This document shows, one piece after another, positions 5,332-9,386 of a DNA stretch of 32,840 nucleotides. The notes under the pieces were generated by a model. The model worked only from the letters and a program-made list of their open reading frames with translations, had not been told where the DNA came from and searched no databases. Both the position numbers and the translations under genes were made by a program. The DNA is from Thermoanaerobaculia bacterium (lineage in GTDB: Bacteria; Acidobacteriota; Thermoanaerobaculia; Multivoradales; JAGPDF01): contig JAGPDF010000051.1 in NCBI GenBank assembly GCA_018057705.1, forward strand, positions 1 to 32,840, given 5' to 3'. Position 1 is the stretch's first letter, and every line of letters starts with the position of its first letter.

Positions 5332-6759
5332 TCAGGCGCCGAGGAGAGCTCGCCGGAAGGCGGCGCGGCCCTGTTCGTCGGGGATGTTCATCTCGAGGAG
5401 GGCCACCAGGTCGCCAAGGCTGCGGGCGTGCCGGTTCCGCCGCACCAGCACGCGCGCCAGCGGTCCGATTCGCCGCGCGAGCTCGGCTTCGACCCGCGCG
5501 AGCGCCTCGTCCTGGAGCGGCCCCTGCGATTTCGTCCCAGCCCCGCTCAGGGCGTTCGACACCGGCGCGGAGACCGTCGAAATGGCGCCGCCACCCGCCA
5601 TGCATCGGGCGCGGAAGCTCTCGCGGCCCGGTCCGGGCGGAACCTGCTTCGCGAGCTCGTCGCAGAGCACGGTGAGCGACGGCGAGGTCGATGCCGTGCG
5701 ACGCACGAGCACTTTCGCCATCGGGCCGATCTGCGCCGAAAGGTGCTCCTCGATGCGCCGGAGGATTCCCGAGTCGAAGGTCGCCGGGGTGGCCGAGGTT
5801 CTCGCCCCTTCGGCAGCCGCGCCGGAACGCGACGCCTGCCCACCCCCGAAGCTCGGCAGCTGGAACTCGCTCGACACCAGCGTCGCTGTCGGCTCCTGCG
5901 CCTCCGGGGCGGCGCCCGTCTGGAGGCGGTAGAGGTCGATGTCGAGGCTCGTGACATCCGGGTAGCGCTCGTCGCGGTCGCGCGCCATCATCTTGCGCAG
6001 CACGAGGCAGCAACCTTCCGAGATCGACGGCTCGAAGTTGCGCGGATCGGGGAACGGCTCCACGAGATGCATCGACATCACGTGCGGGCCGGACGAACCC
6101 TGGAAAGGAACGCGTCCCGTCAGCAAGTGGTAGAGCGTCGCGCCCAGCGAATAGATGTCGGCGCGTCCATCGATATCGCGCTGGCCCAGGACCTGCTCCG
6201 GTGCGATGTAGTTCGGCGTCCCGATCGCCGTTCCGGTCTGGGTCATCGAAGTCTCTTCGCCCATCTGCTTGGCGATTCCGAGGTCGACGAGCTTCACTTC
6301 CCCCAAGCGGGTCAGGATGACGTTGTCGGGTTTGATGTCGCGGTGCACGAGGCCCTGGGCGTGCGCGACGGAGAGTGCGCGACAGATGTAGCGCACGATC
6401 GTGATCGCTTCATTCTCGCTCCAGCGCCCATTGGCCTTCAGGTAGTGCCCGAGGGAAAGGCCGTCGAGCAGTTCCATCGCCAGGTAGTAGACGTCCTGGA
6501 CGGCGCCGAAAGCGAAAACCTGCACGATGTTCGGATGATTGAGACGAGCTACGGCGCGTGCCTCCTTGAGGAAGCGCTCCACGAAGCTCGGTTCGTAGCC
6601 GAGTTCCGGCGAGAGCGTCTTCAGGGCGACCAGTCTGTCCAGCATCTTCTCTCTCGCCCGGTAGACGTTTCCCATCCCCCCCACCCCGAGGAGGTCGAGA
6701 ATCTGGTAGTCGCCGAACCAGCTTCCCGGTGCGAGCGGGTCGTGCGGGCTTGCGCTCAC
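5332..6759 (-). CDS. Ser/Thr protein kinase with two C-terminal IGP repeats
   Basis: This 475-residue Hanks-type kinase is apparently cytosolic, with no membrane segment. Visible elements are the glycine loop (GVGGMGNVY, 25-33), lysine K47, helix-C glutamate E67, the catalytic loop HRDIKPDN (139-146) and the APE region (YIAPEQ, about 184-189). The metal-binding 'DFG' reads DLG at 159-161, a tolerated variant. After a linker rich in Ala/Ser/Gly, two related segments of about 55 residues occur (331-388 and 418-474), each with 'IGPxAKVLVRR' or 'IGPLARVLVRR', a helical module I have seen mainly attached to such kinases. The start is GTG at 6759, four bases after the stop of the heme-sensor gene, so the two are one operon and probably one signalling unit. 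Confidence 0.92.
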   Translation of the reverse strand: MSASPHDPLAPGSWFGDYQILDLLGVGGMGNVYRAREKMLDRLVALKTLSPELGYEPSFVERFLKEARAVARLNHPNIVQVFAFGAVQDVYYLAMELLDGLSLGHYLKANGRWSENEAITIVRYICRALSVAHAQGLVHRDIKPDNVILTRLGEVKLVDLGIAKQMGEETSMTQTGTAIGTPNYIAPEQVLGQRDIDGRADIYSLGATLYHLLTGRVPFQGSSGPHVMSMHLVEPFPDPRNFEPSISEGCCLVLRKMMARDRDERYPDVTSLDIDLYRLQTGAAPEAQEPTATLVSSEFQLPSFGGGQASRSGAAAEGARTSATPATFDSGILRRIEEHLSAQIGPMAKVLVRRTASTSPSLTVLCDELAKQVPPGPGRESFRARCMAGGGAISTVSAPVSNALSGAGTKSQGPLQDEALARVEAELARRIGPLARVLVRRNRHARSLGDLVALLEMNIPDEQGRAAFRRALLGA

Positions 6760-6763
6760 CGAA

Positions 6764-7639
6764 TCAGGATTCCTCGAGCATGCTCATGGCTTTGGCGAGG
6801 CTGATGCGCATCCGCTGGAACGAGCTCGCGAGCACCGCCACCTCGTCGCGTCCGGCAATCGCCACTTCCGGAGTGTCGAAGTCGCCGGTGCTCACCCTGT
6901 CGGCCATTGCCGACAGGCGACGCAGAGGCCGGATGACGACCGCCCAGAGGAGCAGATTGAGGATCAGCATGATCAACAGGAAGATCCCGACCAGCGAGAC
7001 GAGCAGCGTGCGAAACGCCAACCGGGCCGTCGCCATCGGGACCGACGTCGGCACCGAGACGATCTGCGCGCCGATCACCTCGTTGAGCTTCCAGCCGAAG
7101 CCGGCGTTGGGGCCGTACATCCGAACGACGGAGGCGGGCGAGGTTTCGGGACTGGTATGGCAGGAGAGGCAGGCCGGGTCGGTGATCCGGATCGGGCGTC
7201 CAAGGTAGAGCGAGCGCCCGAGGGCGCCGTCGCGCTGGCCGACGATCTCCTTCAATTCGGCGTTGTCTCGAAAGGCATGGATCACGTCAGCCTCCCAATC
7301 GACCGCGCGGTCGCGCGGGTTGGTGGGGTTGAGCGTCGCCTCCTTGTAGGAGTATTCGGGATGGCTCTCGCGAACGTAGTTGAAGATCTCGGTCGCCGAA
7401 TAGGCCGGGACCGACTGCGGGATGAAGTTCTCTGCCAGCATCGGCTTGAGCAGCGGACTGATCTGCTTGCTCGTGTAGGTGCGGGTCGCCAGAGCCGTCT
7501 GCATCAGGATCCCGGCGTTCTCCAGAACCTGTTGCTGAGCGTTTCTCTCCATCGCGCTGCGCGCGAAAAACGTGGCCGGAACAAGCGCCGCCGTGAACAC
7601 CGCGAGCAGGATGAGATTGAACTTCGCGAACAGAGACAT
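6764..7639 (-). CDS. membrane heme-c sensor (Tll0287/DUF3365-like) with HAMP domain
   Basis: The 291-residue protein has membrane segments at about 6-28 and 207-235 enclosing a periplasmic domain. That domain carries one c-type heme motif, CLSCH at 157-161, within 'DPACLSCHTSPETSP', the pattern of Tll0287-like sensor domains. A cytoplasmic HAMP domain follows (about 232-285) and the protein then ends without kinase or methyl-accepting domain. A HAMP relay with no output domain suggests that the partner is the kinase encoded four bases downstream. A redox, NO or small-ligand signal at the periplasmic heme is plausible but is inference. Start ATG 7639; a TTGGGG-17-TAGAAT promoter lies upstream. 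Confidence 0.85.
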   Translation of the reverse strand: MSLFAKFNLILLAVFTAALVPATFFARSAMERNAQQQVLENAGILMQTALATRTYTSKQISPLLKPMLAENFIPQSVPAYSATEIFNYVRESHPEYSYKEATLNPTNPRDRAVDWEADVIHAFRDNAELKEIVGQRDGALGRSLYLGRPIRITDPACLSCHTSPETSPASVVRMYGPNAGFGWKLNEVIGAQIVSVPTSVPMATARLAFRTLLVSLVGIFLLIMLILNLLLWAVVIRPLRRLSAMADRVSTGDFDTPEVAIAGRDEVAVLASSFQRMRISLAKAMSMLEES

Positions 7640-7997: not shown

Positions 7998-9386
7998 ATG
8001 AATCTCCCCATGCGCTCGACTCGACCCGACGCTGCCGCCCCCCGTCTCGGCCGCCTCGCGGTGCTCGCCGCGTTCACACTGCTCTGCGTGCTGGCGCTCG
8101 CTGGCGCGGCGCCGGCCCGCGCGCAGTTGTCGCCCCTCGGCGGGCAGTTCCAGGTCAACAGCTACACGACGGGCATTCAGTACCATCCGGCGGTCGCTGC
8201 GGACAGCGCGGGCAACTTCGTGATCGTCTGGACGAGTTTCGGCTCGACCGGGACGGACTCGAGCAACGCGAGCGTCCATGCGCGGCGCTGGGCCGCCGAC
8301 GGTACCGCACTCGGCGGACAGATCCAGGTCAACACCTACACCACGAGCACCCAGCGTTTTCCAGCGCTCGCCGCCGCCAGCGACGGCGCTTTCGTCGTCG
8401 TCTGGTCGAGCCTCGGTTCGAGCGGGACGGACACGAGCGACGCCAGCATCCAGGCGCAGCGCTATCTTTCCAACGGCATCGCCACCGGCGCCCAAGCCCA
8501 GGTCAACAGCTTCACGACGCTCGAGCAGGAGTTCCCGGCGGTGGCCGCGGACAGCGCGGGGAACTACGTCGTCGCCTGGGAGAGCACCGGATCGACCGGC
8601 ACGGACACGAGCGGCACGAGCATTCAGGCGCAGCGCTTCGCCGCCAACGGTGCCGCGCTGGGCGCGCAGTTCCAGGTCAATACCTACACGACAGGCGGGC
8701 AGCTCAATCCGCAGGTAGCCGTGGACGACGCCGGCAACTTCGTCGTCGTCTGGAACAGCTACGGCTCGGTCGGCACGGACGGCGACAGCGCGAGCATCCA
8801 GGGGCGTCTCTACGCTGCCAACGGCTCGGCGCTCGGCGGGCAGTTCCAGGTCAACAGCTATACGACGAGCGGACAGCGCTACCCGGCGGCGGCAGCGGAC
8901 GGCGAGGGCAACTTCGTCGTCGCCTGGGACAGCTTCGGCTCGAGCGGCTCGGACACCAGCAGCTTCAGCATCCAGGCGCAACGCTATGCCGCCGACGGAG
9001 CCGCGCTCGGCGCGCAGTTCCAGGTCAATACCTACACGACGAGTGCCCAGCGCTATCCGTCGTTGGCTGCGGATAGCACGGGCAACTTCGTCGTCGTCTG
9101 GCAGAGCCTGGGCTCGGGTGGCACCGATTCGGACGATGCGAGCATCCACGGACGGCGCTTCGCCGCGAGCGGCCTTCCAGTGGGAGGCGAAGCGCAGGTC
9201 AACAGCTTCACGACGGGCATCCAGGAGCTTCCGGTGGTGGCCTCGGCCGGCGCCGGCGACTTCGTGGTCGCGTGGACGAGCGTCGGCTCGGTCGGCACGG
9301 ATTCGAGCTACTCGAGCATCCAGGCGCAGCGCTTCGGCTGCGTCTTCTGTGATGGGTTCGAAGGCGGGGACACCGACCGCTGGTAG
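7998..9386 (+). CDS. exported seven-repeat propeller-like protein with C-terminal GFEGG motif
   Basis: The start at ATG 7998 gives a 462-residue protein with a long signal peptide (hydrophobic core about 21-38, likely cleavage near 'ARAQ'). The mature protein is seven tandem 58-residue units, each built like 'QVNxYTT-(Q)-x(5)-AADSxGNFVVVW-S-GS-GTD-ASIQAQRYAADG'. Such repeats, with one W and one GTD loop each, fit a seven-bladed beta-propeller, although the fold is inferred. The last unit runs into 'CDGFEGGDTDRW' and then stop. The function is unknown; secretion or surface display is likely. A distantly similar protein is encoded at 22364-23602. The repeats are also visible as a 174-bp DNA period. 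Confidence 0.88.
   Translation: MNLPMRSTRPDAAAPRLGRLAVLAAFTLLCVLALAGAAPARAQLSPLGGQFQVNSYTTGIQYHPAVAADSAGNFVIVWTSFGSTGTDSSNASVHARRWAADGTALGGQIQVNTYTTSTQRFPALAAASDGAFVVVWSSLGSSGTDTSDASIQAQRYLSNGIATGAQAQVNSFTTLEQEFPAVAADSAGNYVVAWESTGSTGTDTSGTSIQAQRFAANGAALGAQFQVNTYTTGGQLNPQVAVDDAGNFVVVWNSYGSVGTDGDSASIQGRLYAANGSALGGQFQVNSYTTSGQRYPAAAADGEGNFVVAWDSFGSSGSDTSSFSIQAQRYAADGAALGAQFQVNTYTTSAQRYPSLAADSTGNFVVVWQSLGSGGTDSDDASIHGRRFAASGLPVGGEAQVNSFTTGIQELPVVASAGAGDFVVAWTSVGSVGTDSSYSSIQAQRFGCVFCDGFEGGDTDRW
8137..9340 (+). repeat. seven 174-bp in-frame tandem repeats
   Basis: Each unit begins near a 'GGCGGGCAGTTCCAGGTCAA'-like segment and the next follows about 174 bp later. Copies differ at many synonymous and some loop positions, so this is an old protein-coding repeat rather than a recent DNA expansion. 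Confidence 0.85.

Follow-up and report, generated by a model that had tools for sequence, protein, structure and literature searches.

The window, by which we mean the whole analysed stretch of 32,840 nucleotides, carries on its minus strand two neighbouring genes that raise the question of how a membrane receptor ending at its HAMP domain hands on a signal, HAMP relays being usually studied as couplings within one chain. The first gene (6764-7639; PF11845 and PF00672) encodes a sensor of 291 aa consisting of a membrane helix, a periplasmic Tll0287-like c-heme Cache (sCache_heme) domain (aa 32-197; 7049-7546; PF11845, E 1.1e-41), a second membrane helix and a HAMP domain, followed by the stop codon (the helices were assigned by eye). 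A CXXCH heme c motif (aa 157-161; 7157-7171) supplies the only two cysteines of the protein and is the putative site of a covalent heme. The HAMP (aa 235-281; 6797-6937; PF00672, E 1.9e-12 to 3.7e-12) is the sole cytosolic domain, and its match leaves only 10 residues before the C terminus; this end carries RMRxSLxxA, which motif comparison marks as a proposed docking tail (aa 276-291; 6767-6814). The nearest Thermoanaerobaculia (Acidobacteriota) record holds a sensor 96% identical to this one.

Downstream, after a spacer of 4 bases (6760-6763), lies a gene with a GTG start for a soluble Hanks-type Ser/Thr kinase of 475 aa (5332-6759; PF00069). Its catalytic domain (aa 18-266; 5962-6708; PF00069, E 3.7e-51) shows the motifs VALK at 44, HRD at 139, DLG at 159 and APE at 186, and is followed by a linker and two domains of ~55 residues with the motif IGPxA, hereafter IGP domains, each with four predicted helices (domain 1, 5602-5766, profile E 1.0e-18; domain 2, 5347-5508, profile E 2.3e-18). 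With E values of ~1e-18, chance as the source of the repeats was discarded. The catalytic domain is shared with PknB/Stk1, from which the window kinase differs in that its match to the PASTA kinase model NF033483 (E 4.8e-93) scores 313 bits, below the cut-off of 450, and is restricted to the catalytic part. No sensor domain was found in the kinase by the Pfam family scan. Open reading frames, family scans, the CXXCH motif, the terminal HAMP and the IGP profile thus all agree with the preliminary description of the locus, which had named a sensor with a c-type heme motif and a HAMP and without output domain, a kinase four bases downstream without sensor domain, and two IGP repeats at the C terminus of that kinase. 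A profile scan of the window genome returned 16 HAMP domains, one of which, that of the window sensor, is protein-terminal, with 3 aa after the HAMP profile as against 216-495 aa in the other 15. As both IGP matches of this genome fall within the window kinase, its sole HAMP-terminated protein and its sole IGP protein are adjacent.

We propose that the two genes encode a split transmembrane signalling pair, in which a heme sensor with a bare HAMP relays to an IGP-bearing kinase in trans, and we put the probability of this reading at roughly 0.78. The periplasmic c-type heme Cache domain would detect nitric oxide, or else a change of redox state, and transmit this across the membrane, whereupon the dimeric HAMP would change state; since the receptor stops at the HAMP, reading the signal would fall to a second protein. 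The two IGP domains that end the kinase, STAC-like in our reading, would dock on the HAMP, most likely at the end of its second helix with its RMRxSLxxA tail, and recruitment or rearrangement at the HAMP would switch the attached effector, here the Ser/Thr kinase. We infer this HAMP-IGP contact, its site and the direction of control. The same receiver domain would plug other effectors into other HAMP-terminated receptors.

Seen from the sensor, the pairing is conserved. A contig scan gave 325 relatives of the sensor, and the best 80 of these, a set biased toward close relatives, span Acidobacteriota and Pseudomonadota. An IGP gene is adjacent in 75 of these best 80 of 325 loci, directly downstream in 72, downstream with a broken frame in 1, and upstream in 2 (L083 and L087). 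In three more of the 80 (L050, L053 and L076) the contig stops within the neighbouring kinase gene, while in the remaining two (L072 and L097) a gene that looks by eye like a glycosyltransferase follows the sensor, and the IGP gene is unlinked. These two were dismissed as counterexamples; as their genomes (G598 and G599) carry exactly one IGP gene each, elsewhere, they are exceptions to adjacency only. The preliminary description had named loss of the pairing in related genomes as the finding that would speak against a link, and the pair is instead kept in 75 of the best 80 of 325 loci, across two phyla. The 80 loci cannot count as independent, since L049 and L112 belong to a single strain and Zoogloea, Massilia and Xenophilus contribute many of them, and such close kinship is what one would expect if the two genes were operon neighbours without functional link, whose adjacency was inherited or spread by co-transfer. 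The co-occurrence of unlinked sensor and IGP genes in G598 and G599 argues against that explanation.

Seen from the IGP side, a 25-row alignment searched against 247 Acidobacteriota genomes found the domain in 27 of them, in 28 genes, a patchy distribution which suggests transfer and to that extent fits the absence of a functional link. A HAMP-terminated membrane protein lies beside all 28 genes, receptors with unrelated sensor domains included; 27 of the 28 pairs have overlapping frames or frames within about 170 bases of each other, and the other (L163) has a gap of 662 nt. The regions inspected were the window, 11 from a set of 12 and a further 16; in these 16 the HAMP profile ends 1-5 residues before the frame does. 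The weakest IGP matches, with E near 1e-4, also have a HAMP-terminated neighbour, which validates them. Around positions 4400-6400 of L138 and L140, from two related genomes, both the sensor and the kinase frames are broken, through either joint decay of the pair or sequencing errors.

Co-occurrence holds in both phyla. The Tll0287-HAMP sensor is present in 9 of the 247 Acidobacteriota genomes, and all 9 are IGP-positive. In Pseudomonadota an IGP match was found in 5 of 299 genomes, 4 of them credible, and the sensor adjoins the IGP gene in 4/4; the fifth match (L197 in G322, E 7e-5) was rejected as a false positive, lying in the middle of a protein that resembles a CorA-type transporter by eye. 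The sensor itself matched in 14 of the 299, the 4 strong matches (E 1e-77 or better) being exactly the 4 credible IGP genomes. The remaining 10 have E values of 1e-26 to 1e-32 and, one apart, frames of 451-982 aa, which therefore carry more parts; the single short frame, of 307 aa (L247 in G329), is a Tll0287-HAMP protein with 21 aa after the HAMP, without IGP and without the RMRxSL tail. In a reverse control on 31 HAMP loci of the window genome and its relatives, IGP accompanied both of the HAMP-terminated proteins (2/2) and none of the others (0/29). Departures from IGP-HAMP adjacency were seen at L190, where the region begins at a contig end, and at L192 (4886-6046), the third IGP protein of G297, which has no HAMP neighbour, is cyclase-like by eye and gave no Pfam match; as this genome has one known sensor, the protein possibly shares it. 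Together with the two unlinked pairs, both from Acidobacteriota, L192 counts against the proposed relay.

The part that stays constant in these pairs was revealed by the exchange of the others. IGP domains occur with six outputs: kinase, class III cyclase (L074, L080 and L081 by Pfam, L084 by similarity to those three), TIR (L092, L143, L144 and L146), histidine kinase, DUF4388, and a roadblock-like domain (L148, below the Pfam cut-off, with L147 and L149 similar by eye). The sensors beside IGP genes are likewise varied (Tll0287-like, dCache_3, sCache_3, and some with HAMP as the sole match), and the two genes of a pair may lie sensor first, effector first or convergently. A tree of 91 sensors shows 7 changes of the kinase label, of which well supported branches force at least 6, besides 4 of the cyclase label and 3 of the TIR label. 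Such repeated exchange of outputs, the unrelated sensors and the three gene orders, convergent pairs included, leave very little credence for functionally unrelated neighbours that merely travelled together. The kinase as invariant partner was discarded, given the cyclase, TIR, DUF4388 and other outputs found with IGP. Since the IGP domain stays by HAMP-terminated receptors through exchange of both output and sensor, it is this domain, and not the kinase, with which the bare HAMP is constantly paired. The pairing of heme sensor and kinase put forward in the preliminary description therefore stands as a conserved pair, though not as a partnership with kinases as such, while its suggestion that the IGP repeats are the candidate contact surface is strongly supported by the genomics, IGP remaining with the bare HAMP despite the swaps.

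Several individual loci deserve mention. TIR proteins with a C-terminal IGP domain stand beside a heme c sensor at L092:2639-3319, L143:4579-5367, L144:4311-5198 and L146:2059-2904; TIR proteins under a membrane redox or NO receptor would be unusual. At L064:3-1598 a GAF-histidine kinase that ends in an IGP domain (by eye) is located upstream of a like sensor-kinase pair, with a response regulator-cyclase between them. At L193:4893-9052 (the same site as L081) IGP genes stand on both sides of the sensor, one with a cyclase and the other with a kinase output, and a small protein that seems to be secreted is encoded in between, an arrangement in which branching of one signal is possible. Finally, L099:6921-7424, next to a sensor, encodes a protein that has two IGP domains but lacks any output, and so resembles the archaeal protein Af1502 as a bare adaptor.

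Two IGP copies are found in 74 of 78 distinct kinases and in all 4 cyclases, and one copy in nearly all other outputs; the copy number may reflect the copies needed per dimeric HAMP. The same numbers would fit self-assembly, that is, an IGP domain serving as an oligomerisation or scaffold module of the effector, with sensor and effector sharing a pathway (for example, the kinase phosphorylating the receptor or a common target) and no HAMP-IGP contact. Af1502 forms a dimer in the crystal, as this explanation would have it, but is monomeric in solution (PMC4834066, in the part consulted). A scaffold is harder to reconcile with IGP following HAMP-terminated receptors whatever the output or the sensor, no other feature being common to the pairs, and with the IGP domains of L099, which have no output to assemble. 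We consider it unlikely, and retain the relay from HAMP to IGP in trans.

The end of the HAMP differs between receptors with and without a fused output. The pattern [RK]M[RK].S[LMV], chosen post hoc from sequences already inspected, is present in 49 of 60 distinct HAMP-terminated proteins, a set that contains a few frames truncated at locus ends, versus 0 of 36 fused HAMPs. It also closes HAMP-terminated receptors with unrelated sensors.

As to the nature of the IGP domain, it falls outside all Pfam and NCBIfam models, and a family scan of 25 members gave 13 families, each matching one member, with a best E of 0.019. In 42 domains the motif reads hydrophobic-G-P-x-A, the G being invariant and the P and A conserved at 90% or more. 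AlphaFold2 predicts four helices per IGP domain, the first two joined by the IGP turn, both in the window tail (pLDDT 78) and in a DUF4388-type IGP domain (pLDDT 90); an hhalign comparison shows the two types to be homologous (probability 98.4, E 5.5e-15). Such a predicted four-helix bundle of two hairpins, in which an LGPx(x)A-type motif would join helices 1 and 2, recalls the STAC domain. Af1502 of Archaeoglobus fulgidus is itself described as a four-helix bundle with LGPx(x)A between helices 1 and 2, akin to the STAC domain of CbrA, and as coupled to Af1503, a receptor whose sole cytosolic part is a HAMP (PMC4834066, in the part consulted). Where STAC has about nine linker residues between the hairpins, the IGP models differ, with nine in the DUF4388-type domain (one helix ending at 44, the next starting at 54) and only three in window domain 1.

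Af1502 (5A1Q) was also the best natural PDB match of both IGP profiles, at E 0.013 and 0.022, each below significance; for the profile with E 0.013, 8eoz, a designed repeat protein to judge from its name, ranks ahead. In a Foldseek search with the DUF4388-type model, chains of 5A1Q rank 1 and 2 of 350,542, with non-significant E values of 0.54 and 0.61, and superposition on 5A1Q covers 69/69 residues (Z 7.7, rmsd 2.9; next unrelated match 6.0; helical bundle). The model of the window tail reaches only Z 4.5 against 5A1Q, at rank 2, and Foldseek with this two-domain tail returned nothing significant, Af1502 being absent from its 9 matches. The agreement of sequence, predicted fold and gene context, the last including the coupling of all 28 IGP genes in the 27 Acidobacteriota genomes to HAMP-terminated receptors, leads us to regard the IGP domain as STAC-like; it seems to be related to the STAC domain already described. 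A link to SLC5 transporters marks the multidomain branch of STAC and not the stand-alone domain. The Pfam scan found no SLC5 match in the window sensor or kinase, and for this reason we use the label STAC-like rather than STAC; a search for CbrA-type SLC5 proteins from which to build a STAC profile yielded none that was usable.

We read the window pair as a bacterial, effector-fused version of Af1503/Af1502, a HAMP-to-effector relay in trans. In both, a HAMP-only receptor is genomically coupled to a four-helix protein, here a predicted one, whose GP motif joins the first helix to the second; the archaeal genes are translationally coupled (PMC4834066, same part), the window genes four bases apart. 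The systems differ in that Af1502 has no output domain, whereas the STAC-like domain is fused to a kinase in the window and to a cyclase, TIR or other output in relatives, and in that the window sensor, unlike Af1503, is a heme c Cache protein. Because of that fusion, the path from HAMP to effector becomes visible here. CbrA and CrbS (SLC5-STAC-histidine kinase) resemble the window pair in that STAC joins a membrane part to a signalling output (PMC5715377, in the part consulted), within one polypeptide in their case and in the second protein of a pair in ours. That same part calls the role of STAC unknown and reports its deletion in CbrA and CrbS to have no obvious phenotype (PMC5715377), so that signalling does not necessarily require a STAC-like domain. 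Among open-licence papers, a scope outside which the founding STAC paper falls, we found no account of IGP-bearing effectors.

The closest characterised counterpart of the sensor is an sCache_heme-HAMP protein of Pseudomonas azotoformans, which likewise has two membrane helices, a c-heme Cache domain, a terminal HAMP and no output, and which shows the properties of an NO sensor, with slow NO release and no axial Cys (PMC12889525, a 2026 preprint, in the part consulted). By analogy with this protein, the ligand of the window sensor would probably be NO. Stand-alone members of the sCache_heme/Tll0287 family behave as redox proteins (PMC12889525, same part), and the window sensor might accordingly respond to a redox or electron-transfer state instead, which would leave the split relay unchanged. 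We hold this to be the less probable option, if a serious one, since the window sensor, whose only cysteines are the two of CXXCH, has no axial Cys and in this resembles the NO-holding, slow-releasing P. azotoformans protein (PMC12889525, same part). The preprint names no partner for the latter protein, the words 'serine', 'threonine' and 'operon' occurring in it 0 times, whereas for the window sensor a partner is proposed here; among the loci examined, the pair nearest to the P. azotoformans protein is that of Pseudomonas reinekei (L101).

Beyond this locus, the IGP/STAC-like domain probably serves, though with less assurance than attaches to the pair itself, as a general trans-acting receiver of HAMP signals, a plug-in through which bacteria can link receptors ending in HAMP, whichever they are, with soluble effectors of any kind. 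If so, IGP would be for HAMP what receiver domains are for histidine kinases, and the same principle would account for the output of receptors of the Af1503 type. A domain that reads the HAMP from outside would show what signal the HAMP end presents. It would also identify the output so far missing for HAMP-terminated receptors, among them the class to which the measured NO sensor belongs, and would offer a portable module for coupling sensors to kinases, cyclases or TIR proteins. The question of the partner of HAMP-terminated receptors is directly testable with two small soluble constructs. Elsewhere in the window, on the plus strand at 8013-9386, an open reading frame with no significant Pfam family encodes a predicted exported protein built of repeats of ~50 residues.
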